A stretch of 11,265 nt of DNA, from positions 1,136-12,400 of the forward strand of contig NW_014013375.1 in NCBI RefSeq assembly GCF_000611645.1. The letters run 5' to 3'. Positions 380 to 10,334 of the stretch are shown piece by piece (the stretch's first letter is position 1; each line of letters opens with the position of its first letter). A program made the translations under genes and the position numbers. The DNA comes from Monoraphidium neglectum (taxonomy: Eukaryota; Chlorophyta; Chlorophyceae; Sphaeropleales; Selenastraceae). The notes beneath the pieces were generated by a model. The model saw nothing but the letters and a program-made list of their open reading frames with translations. It had not been told where the DNA came from and did not search any database.

Positions 380-1058
380 GGCGCCAATGACGTCGAAGCG
401 CCTGAAAGCGGCGGTGCGGGGTCCCACGGAGCCAACGCTGCTGCACTGCCTGTACCGGCACCTCCCTTGTCACGGCTTAGATGCTGTATGATCCCTCATG
501 TCGTGGCCTAAGGCCCCCCTGAAAGCCCGTGCTGTGCCTGGCATGCTGCGCTTCACGCTAAAAACAACCGATCTAGCTCGCCGCAGAGCCGCAATACTTT
601 TTAATGCGCTAACATTTTTCAATGCATATGGCATGTGTGCGCGGTGAAGCAGCCCAGTAGACATTCGAAGTGACAACTGAGCACTCCGAGATCGTTGAGC
701 GCCTTTCAACTCTGCACACTGATTCAAAGTCCATATAGCTCAACATCAGACATCCTCATATCTGATCCTGGGATGTTATACCTCGGGAGGGAATTGCAGC
801 TGCTGCTCTGATCGCTTGCGTGTCCCTGCTCGCACGCCAGCGGCGGTTTCGTATTGAAATTTCTAGTAATATCCGAGGGTTGGCAGCTGCGACGCCAAGG
901 CCCGGGGGGGCGGCGGCACGCCCCGGGACCCTGCATCGAACGCGGTTGTGTCGCGTCACCGCCGCTGCTGGGAGCCCTGACAACAGCACGCCTCGCAGCC
1001 CACTCATTCAATAGCCAGTGTGGACGTTAAGAGCAACAGTGGCGCCCCGGCCGCCGCC
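380..1058. promoter_or_regulatory. Divergent intergenic region, ligase (-) / carrier (+)
   Basis: This 679-nt gap separates the starts of two genes pointing away from each other, so both promoters and 5' UTRs must lie here unless distant non-coding exons exist. Base composition changes: 585-650 is clearly AT-richer than its surroundings, with T-runs near 598-602 and 614-620, and short TATA-like stretches occur near 733-740 and 774-780. The reading frames crossing it show no recognisable protein family. No specific factor-binding site can be assigned. Confidence 0.45.
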
Positions 1059-3742
1059 ATGCACTCGGGGGATGCCACCACGTCAGGCGTGGCGGCGCCG
1101 AACACGACTGTGCACAAGCAGCAATGGCAGCCGCAGCATCACAATCAGGAGCGGCCCATTTCCCAGCAACAGCAGCAGCAACAGCAGCCGGCCCACGAGC
1201 TACAGCAGCAGCCGGGGACGCCATTCATGACAGAGGACAAATGGCGGGCGGCCAAGTTTGTCTTTGCAGGAGGTGCGCGCGAGGTTGGCTTCCATCTCCC
1301 GTGGCGGATGGTCGTCGCTCGGCCACAGCGGTCGCGCAAAGGCACGGCCGCACCGCGCCTTCTCCGCACCGCGGGCTGTCACGCTCGTCAACTGGCTGTC
1401 AACACGCCTGTGCCGCGCCCGGGCGCCCCTCCCCCTTGCAGGGCTGGCCGGCGCCGTCAGCCGCACCGCGACGGCGCCCGTCGACAGGCTGAAGATGCTG
1501 CTGCAGGTGCAGGAGTCGCAGCACCTCACGCTGCGGCAGGGTCTGAAGATCATGGCGTCGGAAGGTGGGCGGGCGGGCCGCGGCGGCGGCAGCCGCCCCA
1601 CGCTCGGGCGGGCCCCTGCTGCGCCGGCCCCTTGTTCGGCGGCAAGCCGCCGAGGGAGCGCCAGAGGCGGTGGTTGGCGGTTGCAGGTTGGCGTAGCCTT
1701 TTGACGGCACCGCCGTGCCAGCGCGTGCTCCTGTGCAACAAAGCGTACGCGCTGCGTGCCCCGCAGGCAGCTTACGGGCATATTTCAAGGGGAACGGGAC
1801 CAACGCGCTGAAGGTGGGGCGCCGCCGCGGCAGGCGGCAGGGACGCAAGGACGGTGGGGGCAGGGGCACCGGTGGCACGCGCCAGCTTCGCTGCGGGCCG
1901 CGTGGCGTCAAACCGCGCCCCCCTTCCCCCCCCCGGCGGCCGGCTGGGGACGCGGGAGGGGTGCGCGACCTGACGCATGACAGGGGCGCCGCGTTGCTGC
2001 CTCGCGGTCCACCCCGCATGGCTGCCCTCCAGATCGCGCCCGAGACCAGCATCAAGCTGACGTTGAACGACTGGCTGAAGCACCATATCGGCAAGGACCA
2101 CCGGGACATATCGCCCTGGGAGAGGGTGGCCTGCGGCGGCTTGTCGGGGGCGGTCGGGCAGGTGCGGGCCAGATGAAGAGCAGGGACGCCGGGAGCTCGG
2201 GGGGCCGCGGCGGGCGCCCCGCCGGATGCAGCGGCGGCGGCGGCGCAAACACGTCCGCGCTTTCGACAGACTGCAGCCGACGGCAGGGGCACGGGCCCAT
2301 CAAGCCTGGATTATATGTGCATGGTTGGCGCTGCGGCAGCGAACGAACAACATTGAGCAAACAACAACACCCTGGCAGGGGCTGGTGTACCCCCTCGACA
2401 CCGTGCGCACGCGGCTGGCGGTCTGCCACACGGACGAGTACGCCGGGATCTGGCAGACGGCCGTGCGGCTCGCGCGCAACGAGGGCTTCGCGGCATTCTA
2501 CCGCGGCCTCGTGCCGTCCATGGTGCGGCCGCGGCACATCGGCAGACGCCCGCCCTGTGGGGCCTGGGTTGCTGAGGAGCTGCGCAGGGTTGCCAGGGAA
2601 AGCAGCTAGCCGGGCTGTGGCAGCTGCCGCAGCTGCTTGGCTGCCCCAGGGGCCGGCAGGACTGGTGTCTGCAGCGGGCACGCATGCCCAATTGCTGGGT
2701 GCCTTGCGCAGGGTCACCCCAGGCGGCAGGGGGCCGCACCACCTCGATCAGAACCAGCAGGGAGCTGCACACAAGGTCCCTCTGCCCCATAACACCCCAA
2801 ACCGCGCCGCAGTGCGGCATCCTGCCGTACGCCGGCACCGACATAGCCCTGTTTGAGATTCTGAACGAACACCTGCACGACCGGTACGGCGGCGAGCCCC
2901 CCCACCTGGCTATCATCGGGGCAGGCATGGTGTCCAGCGTGTTCGCGCAGGTGCGAGCCCGCGCGCCGCTTGGCGCACGCCCGCCCACCTGGGTCGCGGC
3001 AGACGCCGCGCTGCGCGTGCTCTGCGTGGCGCTGCTGCGCCGCGCGTGCTTTGCATGGCGCTGCTGTCGGCTGGCGCCGACCTTTCATGCGCCTGGCGTG
3101 GCTGGGGTTGCCGCCGCTCCTGGCCGTCGGTGCGGTGCTGCTTCAGCTCCCACGCTGACTGTACGGCTGCGCACTGCCTCGCGCCGATCGCCCCGCGCGC
3201 CGCCGCAGTTTGTCTCCTACCCGCTGGCGCTCGTGCGCACGCGGCTGCAGGCGCAGGGCGTCGGCGGCAACCCCATAAAGTACAGCGGCATGCTGGACGT
3301 CTTCTCGCAGACGATGAGGAACGAGGGCGTCAGGGGGCTGTACAAGGCGCGCGGGCGTGGGGCGTGGGCCGAGGGGGCTGTTGGGTTGGATTGTATGTCT
3401 GTGGATGGGTCGGCAGGCGTTTGGTGCCTGGCTCCAGGGTCAGCCAGCAGTGGTGCACCTGCTGCTATCTGATGCAGAGTTTGCAACGGCATGTGTGCGA
3501 GCAGGTTTGTCTGCTCGTGTGGGTACGTGGGTGTGAGTATGCATGCGTTCGCGTGTGCGTGTGCGCGTGCAAGCCGCTCACAGCTGGGGCATCACGACGT
3601 CATCAGCCTCCGACACGCCCGCTGTCCTGCCTAACTGCAGGGGCTGCTGCCAAACCTCATAAAGCTGGCGCCGGCCGCAGGCATCAGCTGGTACGTCTTT
3701 GAGCAGACCAAGCTGGCGCTGGGGGTCAATCCCGGGAGCTAG
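1059..3742 (+). CDS. Mitochondrial carrier, ATP-Mg/phosphate (SCaMC/APC) type, 8 exons
   Basis: Exons: 1059-1272, 1442-1564, 1767-1813, 2033-2161, 2379-2522, 2813-2950, 3209-3346, 3641-3742; they join in phase to 344 residues ending at TAG. Three tandem carrier repeats are visible. Repeat 1 has P84-V-D86-R-L-K89 followed by E-G and Y-F-K-G; repeat 2 has P176-L-D178-T-V-R181 and N-E-G-F-x-x-F-Y-R-G; repeat 3 has P270-L-A272-L-V-R275 and N-E-G-V-R-G-L-Y-K-G. The Y-P-L-A-L-V-R-T-R-L-Q-A-Q form of repeat 3, the L-P-Y-A-G-T-D-I-A-L loop and the I-S-W-Y-V-F-E-x-T-K-x-x-L-G-V end resemble the ATP-Mg/Pi exchanger family of the inner mitochondrial membrane. These exchange adenine nucleotides for phosphate. 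The usual Ca2+-binding EF-hands are absent: residues 1-60 are Gln/His-rich with eight glutamines at 36-43. The ATG lies in a GCCGCCGCC-ATG context. A related nucleotide or coenzyme A carrier is possible. The fold is near certain, the substrate inferred. Confidence 0.88.
1164..1187 (+). repeat. CAG/CAA run coding for eight glutamines
   Basis: Mixed CAG and CAA codons encode Gln 36-43 of the carrier, with three more glutamines a few codons later (CAGCAGCAG). The run sits in the non-conserved N-terminal extension before the first transmembrane helix. Confidence 0.9.
3347..3640 (+). other. Carrier intron 7, apparent GC-AG intron
   Basis: The conserved G-L-Y-K/G-L-L-P-N junction of the third carrier repeat is restored exactly only if the exon ends at AAG (3346) and the next begins at GGG (3641). 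The intron then starts GCGCGC and ends CTGCAG. No GT donor within the next few bases keeps phase 0; the first in-phase GT (a GTT codon about 30 nt downstream) would insert about ten residues at a conserved junction. The intron also holds a GT/GC-rich, repeat-like stretch at about 3527-3570. Confidence 0.6.
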
Positions 3743-4153: not shown

Positions 4154-6216
4154 ATGTTGAAGCGGCAAGATTGGCAGTTTGTGCACGGCAAGGAGGGTGG
4201 CGACTCAGGCAGCGAGACCAGCGACGACTCGGGTGAGTTACTGCGGGTTGCGGAAGGGGTTTTCAAGCCAAACGGATGTTTCGGACTCTTTGGTGTGTCG
4301 TACAAGGGATGCGGCAGCACGCGTGGCCTGGGCCGCCGCATGGCGACAGCAGCAGCGCGGCTTTTGGCAGCCGCCGGGTGCCATGAGGTTGCTTGCTTCA
4401 TACAACTATTACCCCACCCCGCAATGCAGATCGTGACGACGACGTATCTTCCGAGGACGGCAGCCCAGGCCCTGGGGCCGCCGCTTCAAAGCGTCCGCGG
4501 GCGTCTGCAGCCCCTCGTGTGAAGCCGGCGCCGGCAAAGCGGGCAAAGCGGGCAGAGCAGTCAGTGGCGGGGGGCAGAAAAGACGACAGCTCGGATGGGG
4601 GTGAGCAGAGCGGCGAGGGCAGCAGCGGCAGCGGGGACGATGACGACGATTTGGTGGGCAACGGCGGCCCCAGCGGCTCGGACGTCGGCGCTGTCTCGGA
4701 TGGCGGCGGCGGCGGCGGCGGCGATGATCGCGGCGGCAGCAGCAGCGGCGACGGGGATGGGAGCGACGAGGAGGGCGGGGAGCTGCGCGTGGAGGAGCTA
4801 ATACGGTGAGGCCGCGTGGAGTAGTAAGATGGAGCCAAACCGCCCGAGGGGTTGCGCGCCTGCAGCGGCGTTGGGGCTTGTCTGCGGCAGCAACGGCCCA
4901 GTTGGCCCGAATCGCTGCAATCAGACGTAGGCGGCTCCTGGCACCTCAACTCACCCTCCCATGCGCCGCGTGCGTCCCGTACAACCGCCGCAGCAACTGG
5001 GAGGCGGCGCCCTTGCAAGAGGCCGTCAGGGTGCGCGCCCGCGCTCCCCCCCCCCCCAAAAAAAACCATGTTGCCTTGCATTGGCTGCGATGCTGTAGCG
5101 CCGCCCGCCCGCCTGGAGCCTGTGAGAGCAGATCAAGTGGGGGACGGGCGACACCACAATGCATTTGCACCACGCACAGCTGGCCCTGTTTCGGCCGTCT
5201 CGCTGCAGAGGGCCCGGCGCTGCAACCCCCTCCAACCCCCAGGGAGTGGCCCTGCGGTGCGTCGCCTGCAAGGCGCTGCTCATCAACGCCCAGGGGTACC
5301 GTGCCCACGCCCAGTCCAAGGTGTGCGCCGCCAGCGGGGGCGCGCCGCCGCGGGACCCGCCCGCTCCCGCGCCCACGCAGGTGCACGTGGGCACGCCACG
5401 CCTAGCGGACGGCGCGGGGCGTGCCGACACGCGCACCATCGCCCGGGCTGCGCCGCGCGCCCACCCGCGTGCGTGGAAACGGCCACGCCCGCGCACGCAC
5501 GCGGCCCCTCGCCTGCACGCGCACAGCCGACAGCACCCCCTCCCCACGCTCCCCCACGAGCAGAAGCACATAGGCGCCATGAGGAGCTGGCCCGAGCATC
5601 TGGGGCCCGCCATCGTGTTTGCCACCGACGCGGCGAAGGGGGAAGAGACCGGGGAGACGCACGGGGAGCGCCTGGCGCGGCTGCGGCGGCAGGCGGAGCT
5701 CGACGCTCAGGACGCGGCCGGCGGCAGCGAGGGCGGCGGCGCGGCAGGTCGGTCGGTTCAGCAGGGCAGCCGGAAGGCGTGGGGGCGGGCTCGAGCGAGG
5801 GCGGGGCTCCCGCTAGAGCGTTGGCATTGGTGTGGTCAAACCAGGGCCCGACCTAGTCCCTTGGTGCGGGCTTTCGTGCGCTAGCTTGTGTTGGTTGTGC
5901 CTCATCTCCGCCGCCGCCGCGGCGCGCCGCGCCCCCGCCGCCCGCCGCAGGCGGGAAGAAGGCTAAGGGCAAGGGGCGGCGCAAGGAGGGGGACAAGCCT
6001 GCGCGCAAGCGGCCGGGCAAGCGTCAGCGGGAAGCTCTAAAGGCAGATCCGCCTGCGGGCGCCGCCGCTGCGCAAGGCGCCAAGCGCGGCGGCAAGAAGG
6101 GCGGGCCCCGCGGCGGCAACAAGGCTGGTCCCGAGGGAGCTGAGGGCGGAGAGGCAGCGCCCAAGCGCAAGCGTCCGGGGAAGCAGGCACGGGCGGAGCG
6201 CAGGGCGGCAGCGGGA

Positions 6217-6261
<45 letters not shown>

Positions 6262-6381
6262 ACGGCGACGACACCTGCTGTCGAGGCCCCGGCGCAGCCG
6301 GCTGCAGGGCCGGCTGTGGCGGCGGGCGGCAAACAGGCAGCTGGGGGCAAGGGGCGCACCGGGGCACGCCGCTCGGCTTAG
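4154..6381 (+). CDS. C2H2 zinc-finger protein with acidic and Lys/Arg-rich regions, 5 exons
   Basis: Exons: 4154-4232, 4430-4805, 5209-5320, 5564-5747, 5951-6381; phases match (1, 2, 0, 1) and give 393 residues ending at TAG. Residues 13-60 are Ser/Asp/Glu-rich, followed by a basic stretch with A-K-R-A-K-R-A-E, then an acidic, Gly/Ser-rich region up to about 148. A single zinc finger has C169-x2-C172-x12-H185-x5-H191, the spacing of the U1/JAZ-like C2H2 class that can bind double-stranded RNA or act in ribosome-biogenesis factors. Residues 252-337 are Lys/Arg/Gly-rich with K-R-K-R-P-G-K and A-R-K-R-P-G-K motifs resembling nuclear or nucleolar signals. A run of 16 glycines follows at 339-354. 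I do not recognise an orthologue; a nuclear or nucleolar RNA-related role is inferred. The least certain boundaries are the exon 3 start (supported by phase) and the weak GTCGGT donor after exon 4. Confidence 0.68.
6214..6261 (+). repeat. GGC triplet tract coding for 16 glycines
   Basis: One GGA followed by fifteen GGC codons in the last exon of the zinc-finger gene. Such triplet tracts are prone to length change. The opposite strand would read as long Ala, Pro or Arg runs, which explains the large antisense frames here. Confidence 0.93.
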
Positions 6382-6847: not shown

Positions 6848-7226
6848 ATCAGGGGTAGCAGGCCTAGCGTGTGAGCCGCGGCGGCACCAACTCGTGCAAA
6901 CCAACGCTCACAGACTGCTGACGAACAGGCCTCACCGGAACTGAACCAGCCAACGCGCATTGCGTGGTGGGTGAGCAGTCAATTGCTCAACGCTCAGACG
7001 CCAGCCAGCGCGGCGCCCCACCCAGGTCGTATGCAAGGGCCAAACAATCCTGGGCTTGGCCCACGCCTGCCGGTGGCAGCACTGAGCAGCCGCAAACAGC
7101 AAAGCTGCGCCCATCGCTTGCGCGCGCAGCTTCATCGCACGAGCATGCTGACATGCCCACGTCGGGCCGTCATCTCCATGCCTGAGATGCCAGGCCTGAT
7201 CACCTGCGGAGGTGATGATGGTGCTG

Positions 7227-10200
7227 CTACTGCTGCTGTTGGTGGTGCTGCTGGTGCTGCTGCTGGTGATGTTGGTCGTGATTGTGATCATGGTGCTGCC
7301 ACTCATGCGAATCGTGGTCCGTATGGTGCTGCTGCCCGTGCTCCTGCCAGTGCTGCCCATGCTGCTGCTCGTGGTGCGCCTCATGGTGCTGCTGCTGCCC
7401 GTGCTGCTGCTCATAGTGCTGCTCGTGGTACTTGTGCTGCTCATGCGCGCCGCCGCCGCCGCCGTGGTGCGCGTGGTGCGCCTGGTCGTGGTCCGGCACG
7501 TGCTCCCCCGCGTGGTGGTCGTGCTCTGTGGCGAGCCAGTCCTCGTACTCCTTCTCCCCGGCCAGCAGCAGATCATAGATCGCGTTCTCAACCTCGGCCT
7601 GGTCCCATGCCTGGCCGATGAGCTTGACGGGGCGGCCGCGCTGGTCGACCAGGATCTGCAGGGGTTGCAGGGGAGGGGGTGAGAGCGGGGGTCATGCGGT
7701 GCAGCGCAGGGCACACGCGACCCACTACACAAGGCAGCGAGCACGGGCCAGATGTGTTGACAAATGGAGAGGCAAAAGCCTGCCGCCCGGTCCCAAGCCA
7801 CGTAAAGCCCATACCGGCCGCATCTCGAGTGCGCCTTCAACTCACATCTCCACTCAACCCCACCCCTTCCTAAACACACAGAAACGGCATGATTCACACA
7901 CAATTTGCCGCACCCATAAAAAGCAGAGCCACAGCAGCTGCCAGACCAACGATTACACCTGTAGGCGACGCACCTTTTGGAAGTTCCAGACCAGGTCTTT
8001 GCCGGTCCCGTGGCCGCCGCCGCCGCCCTCCGCCACTGGCAGCTCCCTCTTCAGGTATTGGTAGACAGGGTGGGCGTGCGGCCCGTTGACGTCCACCTGC
8101 GGGCGACACAGGGTGCAGGAACGGGGTGCACGTGTTGGGCGGCTGATGTTGGAATAGGTTTTATTGGGGCCGCAACACCACCTCCCCCAGGTAGTGTTGC
8201 TGCATAATGTCTGCCGCTGTAGGGGGAGGACGCAGCCGCAGCGTGGCGGGCGTTCGCCTTGTTGTTGGCTGTTGTCGGCAAGAAAGGCACAAGGCACTGC
8301 GGGAAGGCTTGAGACCCAATTCAAGGTAGAAACATGACCGCGACCCGCATTCCCGTGACAACGAAGCGTCCCTCAATCCTCCAGAACCACGCATGCTCAG
8401 ACGCATCTGCACGCACATGCGCAACCCCTCCCCCGCCCCCACCTTGCTGAACAGCTCAAAGCTGGTGTTGTAGTGGCCCTTGCAGAACGCCTTGATCTCC
8501 GCGTTGCTGCCCGGCTCCTGGTGCCCAAACTGGTCCGAGGGGAACGCCAGGATCTCAAGGCCGTGGGGGTGATACTTCTCCCAGACCGACTGAAGGCCGC
8601 GGTAGTTTGAGTCGGTGGACCCGCAGCGGCTGGCCACGTTTACGACGAGCGTCACGCGGCCCGCCAGCGCGCTCAGGCGGCGGGGGCGGCCGTCGATGTC
8701 GGTGGCCTCCTGCGGGTTTGGGTTGGGGTTTACAAGGCAGGCAGGGTGCGGCGAGGATAGTGTGGGGATGGAGACCTCTTCCAGCGCCTGAGGGTGGCGC
8801 CATCTACGGCGCTTGCCCAGCAAAGCTACCTGAGTCAGTTGCCCGGCTGCGCCGCCCAAAACTGCGCCGTGCGCCCTGCCCACGTACGCAAAGCTGCTCG
8901 CCAGCTGACAGGCTCAACCGCGGGCCCAGAGGTCTGTAGAGCGCACGGTCCTGTACAGCCCCTTGGGTGCAGCGCTCCTCCCCCTGATTTCGCTCGCACC
9001 CACCAAGGTGTACAGCCCCTGCGGGACGGCGTGATCCGGGTGGTGCAGGTGGTGCGGCGCGTGCGCGTGGTCGACGTGGTGTGCCGAGTCCTCCACGGGG
9101 TCCGGCAGCGCGGCCTGCTCCTCATACCACTTCTGGATAGCCTCGTCATAGTGGGGGTGCCACTGGTCGTCGTGGTGACCCGGGTCGTGGTGACCTGCGT
9201 CGTGGTGACCCGCGTGCTCGTGGTGGGCGGCGGCCCCGTCGTGGTGGGGGTCGTGCGACCCCCAGTGGTCGCCGCCGCTGTGCTGGCTATCCCAGTCGTG
9301 GTGCAGCGGCGCGTGCCCGTGGTCGCCGCCGTGCAGGATGACGTCATCGTGGCCGCCCGCGGCGTGCTCGTGGGCCATGTCCCTGTGGTCCGCCGAGTGG
9401 TCGTACGGGTCTGTGCTGTGCACGCCGTGCGCACGCGGCGTGTGCTGCGCGCCGTGCGCGTCCTGGTGGGCGCCGTGGGCCTGCCCGTTGTGTTGATGGT
9501 GCGACCGCTGGTCCCAGTGGGGGTCGTGGTGGCGCGGCTGATCCCAGTGGTGTGCATCGTGGCCGTGGTCGCCGTGGGGGTTGGCCAGGTCATGGTGCTG
9601 TTGGTGCTGATGCTGGTGCTGCTGCTCGTGCCCCTGCTGCTGCTGCAGGTTTCGGTGGCTGTCCCAGCCCGCGTCGTGGTGGTGCCAGTCCTCGTGCCAC
9701 GAATGGTGGCCGGCGTCGTGGACACCGTGCTGCGCGGCGCGACGGTCGGGCGGCGCGTAGCGAGAGCATGAGGCGGGGCGCGCAGCACCGATTTGAATGT
9801 AGGTGCGGGGCAGCCCTTAGCAGGTGTACACGCCCTGCTCCGGCGACCCACGTGACTCGCCATTAGTAAGGCTGGAGGATGCTGTACAGTAGCAGCAGTC
9901 ACAGAGCTTCCTGCTGACTGTTACAAAAAGCTCAGCCGCCGATCCCACATCAGCTGCACAACCAAGACCCGAGGTCGAGGTTCTGTTGCGCCCAGGTCCA
10001 CCGCCCACACGCACCAGCTCTTGGCCGTGATGTTTGCTGCCCGTGCGGCTGACTAGCACCAAGCCGCAGATGCCAAACAGCGCAACCGCTGCAAGTGCCG
10101 CGTTCCTGCGTCGATGCAGCGCCCCAACATCAGCGCGCGCTGGTGCCAGGCATCGGCCGTGAGTGAGCGCCCGGACGCGCCGGCCACACCGCAGCCAATT

Positions 10201-10334
10201 GTGTTGCTTTTGTTATCTCAGACTCACCCCGCGATCCCTCGGCGTGTCTTCTTCAGCGTGGGGCTGCCGGCCCGCCCGCACACCGGCAGCAGCTCCGGGG
10301 TGTTCGCCCCATTCGATCGCACACGGCGCATCAT
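7227..10334 (-). CDS. Membrane-anchored glutathione peroxidase-like protein with His-rich arms, 6 exons
   Basis: Exons in transcript order: 10334-10228, 10105-10015, 9729-9004, 8709-8443, 8096-7974, 7655-7227; phases are 2, 0, 0, 0, 0 and give 580 residues ending at TAG. Residues 1-36 are basic (K-K-T-R-R at 28-32), 37-55 form one hydrophobic helix, 67-300 are a His/Asp/Gly-rich arm, about 304-470 the peroxidase domain, and 483-580 a His/Gln-rich tail. Catalytic residues are present: C337 in V-A-S-R-C-G, Q368 in F-P-S-D-Q-F-G, and W434-N435 in V-W-N-F. C337 is encoded by TGC, so this is not a selenoprotein. C384 (E-I-K-A-F-C) sits where the resolving cysteine of bacterial and yeast thioredoxin-dependent members lies; the common F-P-C-N-Q cysteine is Ser366. 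The family reduces hydrogen peroxide and lipid hydroperoxides with thioredoxin or glutathione. A signal anchor with the arms and catalytic domain on the far side of a membrane is inferred. Exons 3-6 are secure, exons 1-2 rest on phase and splice consensus. Confidence 0.8.
7230..7523 (-). repeat. His/Gln-rich low-complexity tail (C-terminal)
   Basis: The last 98 residues of the peroxidase contain about 34 histidines, with Gln replacing the Asp/Gly of the N-terminal arm in the distal part, and end in four glutamines before TAG. It follows the last helix of the peroxidase domain (A-I-Y-D-L-L-L) in the same exon without interruption, so its attachment to the catalytic domain needs no splice prediction. 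Confidence 0.9.
9029..9729 (-). repeat. His/Asp/Gly-rich low-complexity arm (N-terminal)
   Basis: Exon 3 codes for 242 residues with about 67 histidines (roughly 28 percent), often as H-H, H-D, H-x-H and W-H pairs, with Asp, Gly, Ala and Trp between them. A short less repetitive island (A-I-Q-K-W-Y-E-E-Q-A-A-L-P-D-P-V-E-D) lies near the end. The composition suits Zn, Ni or Cu binding, but no ordered metal-site motif can be assigned. Confidence 0.85.
9169..9213 (-). repeat. Three 15-nt tandem units (G-H-H-D-A/P)
   Basis: On the plus strand GTCGTGGTGACC occurs three times at a 15-nt spacing (9169, 9184, 9199), each followed by a variable triplet. In the peroxidase frame it reads as G-H-H-D repeats joined by Ala or Pro, which suggests local slippage or unequal exchange lengthened the arm. 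Confidence 0.85.
10015..10105 (-). other. Predicted signal-anchor transmembrane segment (exon 2 of the peroxidase)
   Basis: Exon 2 encodes about 19 uncharged residues (Ala/Val/Leu/Phe/Ile/Gly/Cys, residues 37-55) preceded by K-K-T-R-R in exon 1 and followed by R-T-G-S-K-H-H. A basic flank before a single hydrophobic helix is typical of a type II signal anchor. The splice sites are strong (GTGAGT donor before, GACGCAG acceptor, GTGCGTG donor after) and the phases fit only this reading. Confidence 0.6.

Follow-up and report, generated by a model that had tools for sequence, protein, structure and literature searches.

An 11,265-nucleotide stretch of the genome of the green alga Monoraphidium neglectum, referred to here as the window, raises the question of whether a glutathione peroxidase (GPX) can form the centre of a membrane-anchored protein with a long histidine-rich arm on either side and, if so, what such arms are for. 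The original prediction joined these parts in a single gene and suggested that the arms could concentrate or buffer metal beside a peroxide-reducing site, stop metal-driven radical chemistry at a membrane or drive pH- and metal-dependent assembly. In the model examined here, a 580-residue product is encoded by six minus-strand exons (10334-7227) whose joints are all in phase, and all five introns have GT-AG borders. Its parts are as follows.

10228..10334, minus strand: exon 1, start codon and basic N-terminus (MMRRVRS...KKTRRGIA), the start being common to the sister gene described below
10015..10105, minus strand: exon 2, single hydrophobic helix, residues 36-54, by hydropathy and identity with the sister
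9004..9729, minus strand: exon 3, His/Asp-rich arm 1, ending in PQGLYTL, by alignment with the sister
8443..8709, minus strand: exon 4, peroxidase core with catalytic Cys337 and Gln368 and a possible resolving Cys384, by Pfam and PDB comparison
7974..8096, minus strand: exon 5, peroxidase core with Trp434 and Asn435, by PDB comparison
7227..7655, minus strand: exon 6, end of the peroxidase domain and His/Gln-rich arm 2, coding 7655-7230

The N-terminus of approximately 35 residues ahead of the helix contains eight Lys or Arg and one acidic residue, and leads into a single hydrophobic peak of 19 residues with a mean Kyte-Doolittle value of 2.2; the next best peak (1.1) lies within the peroxidase domain. 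Both features had been predicted, as had a 242-residue exon with about 28 percent His: exon 3 has 242 codons, of which 67 (27.7%) specify His, and arm 1 has 67 His in 237 residues. The tail was expected to be about one third His, and arm 2 contains 34 His in 99 residues (34%), the earlier length of 98 residues reflecting a different choice of arm start. The TAG stop codon (7229-7227) falls within a CAG run, past which the His frame stays open for eight codons to a TGA (7200-7229). With six in-phase exons, GT-AG introns and the same design in a second gene, the fused model is right as far as sequence can show, its exon joins being backed by conservation in that second gene rather than by transcripts.

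In the 34.6-Mb, 1632-contig assembly, a search with the PF00255 profile returned four matches, which fall into three gene loci (those of the window, C1101 and C1055), and a search with the window's own domain returned the same three contigs; as both searches proceed exon by exon, a very divergent GPX copy could escape them. The gene on C1101, hereafter the sister (G000:C1101, locus L010, 2072-6258 plus stop), has seven exons that encode 863 residues without an internal stop, and one intron has GC instead of GT at its donor site (GC-AG). The order of its parts is that of the window gene: an MMRRVRS start, a helix, a His-rich arm, a peroxidase domain and a His-rich tail. Arm 1 of the sister holds 77 His in 327 residues and the tail 63 in 280, with 149 His in the whole protein; a long poly-Gln run is also present. 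The peroxidase domains of the two proteins are 66.9% identical across 178 residues and the first seven residues (MMRRVRS) are identical throughout. A DNA pattern for MMRRVR occurs at two sites in the genome, which are these two genes, and the reversed-pattern control occurs at one. The third locus, C1055 (L009), encodes a plain peroxidase, with no arms in the frames read around the gene. Between its exons lie long CA/GT repeats that translate as His-Thr or Cys-Val tracts, a trap for scans that seek His-rich sequence. A search with the N-terminus also proposed C300 as a third family member (E 0.045); this candidate was rejected, as it has a stop in frame and 3,129 bases there contain neither peroxidase nor arms, and the longer C300 stretch L029 holds no His-rich tract. 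Segmental duplication of the neighbourhood was likewise rejected: when the window and L032 were compared by blastn with L010 and L030, a comparison that excludes the stretch just downstream on the window contig, which reads N, all matches lay within the gene, bar two of 38 bases each (E 0.001).

Conservation between the two genes, assessed with a purpose-written Nei-Gojobori count, bears directly on whether the His-rich frames are translated. At the end of arm 1 (last 40 residues), 30 of 40 residues are identical, with dN 0.20, dS 0.84 and dN/dS about 0.24. The other two frames of this junction are identical at 22 of 39 positions, and both are interrupted by a stop in the sister. As the His frame is better conserved and its rivals are closed in the sister, it is the translated one at this junction. 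The junction between arm and peroxidase is conserved as protein and arm 1 is therefore part of the peroxidase gene in either copy. A His exon belonging to a separate gene was rejected on the same basis, since PQGLYTL at the end of exon 3 forms the opening strand of the peroxidase fold and the sister has the same junction. The helix region is identical at 13 of 25 residues (dN 0.34, dS 1.90) and the peroxidase part has dN 0.26 and dS 0.85 (173 codons, including the first few tail residues), the exact dN/dS values being rough because synonymous distances are large. Outside the junction, the arms of the two genes align poorly, their composition being kept and their sequence not. Arm 2 follows the peroxidase domain within the same open exon in both genes; alignment there is confined to the first tail residues and is otherwise a matter of composition only.

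Cys-type glutathione peroxidases (PF00255), which include the thioredoxin-dependent 2-Cys enzymes of plants, yeast and bacteria, have a catalytic tetrad of Cys, Gln, Trp and Asn. The full domain and complete tetrad claimed for the window protein are both borne out: Pfam GSHPx matches residues 305-413 over model positions 1-108 of 108 (E 7.9e-38; 128.8 bits against a curated cut-off of 27), and the tetrad consists of C337, Q368, W434 and N435. The catalytic residue is the Cys of NVASRCG, and neither selenocysteine nor a UxxC motif is present. A second cysteine, C384, aligns with the FC of the bacterial relatives L033 and L005, at a position that may be that of the resolving Cys in a thioredoxin-type cycle. 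Judged by its sequence, the window protein is a member of the Cys-type family, which it resembles in its complete domain, tetrad and second cysteine and in its identity to L033. It differs from the 81 relatives compared (the best 80 of 584, plus L005) in having an anchor, two His-rich arms and a length of 580 residues, as against 157-223 residues from the first Met in 74 of the 81; the other seven (251-979 residues) probably represent open frames that run too far in GC-rich genomes. The maximum His count per 50 residues, taken over stop-to-stop frames, is 12 in one relative (L052) and at most eight in the other 80. A further difference is the motif FPSDQF, which reads FPCDQF in 80 of the 81 relatives and FPSDQF in the remaining one. 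In viral_contigs, the peroxidase domain was found at three loci, of which L005, examined in detail, is a plain peroxidase, and no relatives of the arm junction or of the arm-2 exon were confirmed there.

The sister provides a natural dissection of this design. At the tetrad sites it has S441, Q472, A536 and N537, such that the catalytic Cys and Trp are both gone. Not one cysteine occurs in its 863 residues, the position of C384 included. A version of the sister with a shortened poly-Gln run and without the tail still scores 93.4 bits as a GSHPx fold. Identity to the bacterial relative L033 is 48.8% for the window domain and 43.6% for the sister, whilst identity to the alga's plain GPX is 40.9% and 34.4%, respectively; that the window domain is nearer to a bacterial protein than to the plain GPX of its own genome may reflect a separate origin of the domain. 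The sister is probably a pseudo-peroxidase. It is best regarded as still a gene, since neither stop nor frameshift has arisen at a synonymous distance near 0.85, although the pairwise dN/dS count takes both branches together and cannot show constraint on the sister branch alone. As the sister lacks the catalytic residues yet has the arms, these cannot exist only to serve catalysis, which suggests that they have a function of their own. The proposal that the arms serve peroxide reduction through metal at the active site is weakened accordingly, given that the sister kept arms and anchor and lost Cys and Trp. The original interpretation is half right: the arms are real and have been retained as a design, but they are untied from catalysis.

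The composition of the arms is distinctive. The four arms of the two proteins contain 22-34% His, 1.0-6.4% Cys/Ile/Leu/Phe/Val/Met, 2.0-4.3% Trp and 1.0-2.5% Lys/Arg. Their G+C content is 0.86-0.92 at first and third codon positions and 0.19-0.37 at second positions; for the two peroxidase parts, the third-position values are 0.91 and 0.83. When the DNA of each window arm was resampled 2000 times under a first-order Markov model and scored on the best of three frames, the maximum was 45 His for arm 1 (67 observed) and 22 for arm 2 (34 observed), a control which keeps dinucleotides only and leaves out repeat slippage. Frame 0 stayed open in 274 of the 2000 resamples for arm 1 and in 738 for arm 2, so an open frame alone proves nothing. 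The possibility that the His frame of arm 1 is a chance frame of repeat DNA was rejected, the junction conservation and the resampling counts both standing against it. His residues and net acidic charges number 67 and 34 in arm 1 and 34 and 15 in arm 2 of the window protein, and 77 and 41, and 63 and 33, in the respective arms of the sister (ratios of 1.97, 2.27, 1.88 and 1.91). With His at approximately twice the net acidic charge, the arms would be close to neutral when His is half protonated and would change sign below that pH; full protonation would take window arm 1 from a computed charge of -34 to one of +33, with a change of sign in the other three arms as well.

Each protein has a single N-glycosylation sequon and both occupy the same aligned site (N389 in the window protein, N491 in the sister), at which 0 of 71 bacterial-type relatives has one (10 of the 81 being unreadable). 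Within 15 residues of the helix, four basic residues precede it and two (window copy) or three (sister) follow. Together, the positive N-terminal flank and the sequon weakly favour an N-in/C-out, type II arrangement with a lumenal C-terminal part, the sequon argument resting on one site and the difference in flank charge being small.

These observations can be brought together in what we consider the likeliest reading, at about even odds, namely that the two are type II proteins of an endomembrane or the cell surface with metal- and pH-responsive arms, peroxide reduction being an extra in the window copy. The pair would then constitute a two-gene family of membrane-anchored proteins with a glutathione-peroxidase fold. 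The lumenal part would be held by a single helix, preceded by a short basic tail in the cytosol, and would consist of a peroxidase-fold core between two long, presumably disordered arms rich in His, Asp, Glu, Gln and Trp. Within an endomembrane compartment or at the cell surface, the arms could form a ligand brush that takes up divalent metals (Zn, Cu, Ni) with high capacity and low affinity and whose charge is predicted to flip near the pKa of histidine. The window copy would add a two-cysteine peroxidase activity, whilst the sister would use the peroxidase fold only as a folded spacer or partner. In a bolder form of this scheme, which we consider unlikely, the active peroxidase and the cysteine-free pseudo-peroxidase would assemble together, in an acidic compartment or on the surface of the alga, into a brush or condensate that responds to pH and metals. 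The fold would be a replaceable core and the pair a new lineage of membrane-tethered His-arm proteins, in which the dead copy sets assembly and metal load and the live copy clears metal-made peroxides.

The main rival, somewhat unlikely in our estimation, holds that the arms are mainly low-complexity filler without metal or pH function, produced as CAG/CAC slippage in a GC-rich genome lengthened tolerated disordered linkers. Tandem repeats of 3 to 63 bases are indeed present in the arms of both genes, the arrays covering approximately 183 of the 297 bases of window arm 2, and more in the sister, whose poly-Gln run and unequal arm lengths fit the same process, as does the position of the window's TAG inside a CAG run. 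Arm 1 fits it less well: arrays occupy only approximately 207 of the 726 bases of exon 3, yet the His content there is 28%, and the low dN/dS of the His frame at its end, with the other frames closed in the sister, also argues against filler. A His content of 22-34% in all four arms also speaks against it. A scan of 27 loci (129,557 bases with some overlap, N making up at least 16,435), which represent a small part of the genome, sought tracts with at least 20% His over 90 residues and left out any window that contained six HT or HM pairs or more. Apart from the two study genes, it found only a Gln/His tract in L123 and a tract next to a CA repeat in L118. Genome-wide, the pattern HHDxxHH has 16 sites, three of them in these two genes, and is not enriched relative to its reversed control, with 17. 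As the arms align poorly away from the junction, part of their length, perhaps most of arm 2, may be due to slippage; given the array coverage, the argument against filler is a good one for arm 1 but a weak one for arm 2.

It is quite unlikely that the window protein is an ER/Golgi thiol oxidant comparable to GPX7 or GPX8, with arms that only tether the enzyme or concentrate it with partner disulfide isomerases. GPX8 is described as a 209-residue, type II membrane Cys-GPX of the ER (PMC10017475), an anchored arrangement like that predicted for the window protein. At that length, GPX8 has no room for such arms, and PDB comparison scores the window protein higher against natural GPX4-type chains (approximately 114-127 bits) than against GPX7 (110.8 bits, a small margin) or GPX8 (approximately 87 bits). 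Furthermore, a shared oxidant role cannot explain the gene pair, because the sister has lost the Cys. A plastid or mitochondrial destination offers a counterpoint to the endomembrane reading; in this version, which we consider very unlikely, the N-terminus is a transit peptide and the arms buffer metal near electron-transport chains at an organellar membrane. The basic, acid-poor N-terminus would suit such a peptide, and the host has an rbcL gene of green-algal type (contig C1632), whose protein matches PDB chain 1gk8, a Chlamydomonas Rubisco, best and at full length. However, the tail of approximately 35 residues runs straight into the helix, with more positive charge on the N-terminal side, and the aligned sequon in both proteins also speaks against an organellar location.

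Should the reading as type II proteins with metal- and pH-responsive arms hold, the alga would possess a membrane peroxidase that bears its own large responsive arms, together with a catalytically dead twin, a design that resembles selenoprotein P in concept but is built from a glutathione peroxidase. His-rich domains on the redox domain of selenoprotein P bind Zn, Cu, Ni, Co, Cd and other metals (PMC11818150; see also PMC10264388), so that metal binding by this kind of combination has a precedent. The likeness lies in a redox domain joined to two His-rich stretches, judged for the window protein by composition, whereas selenoprotein P is an animal selenoprotein that is secreted, contains a UxxC motif and has short His stretches, with 23 His in all. 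Neither GPX8 nor selenoprotein P is claimed as a homologous architecture, and the comparison is one of analogy. The original prediction knew of no described peroxidase of this design, which agrees with the full-text literature: among the matches listed there was no His-armed GPX or pseudo-GPX. Nor did the literature matches listed include a His-rich disordered algal or coacervating protein of this kind. What is new here is a variant of the Cys-type GPX with an anchor and two His-rich arms, a design that may or may not be rare among algae. In this gene pair, nature has uncoupled the arms from the enzyme, so that the role of each can be tested on its own.

Two further genes, one of them only probable, lie on the plus strand of the window. 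A mitochondrial carrier gene in several exons occupies 1050-3740, with ends placed by eye and two Mito_carr matches (8e-11 and 5e-12). At 5240-6381, a C2H2-type finger (zf-met, E 1.6e-4) marks the probable gene; a basic stretch with a long poly-Gly run follows further along and may be read as one gene with the finger.
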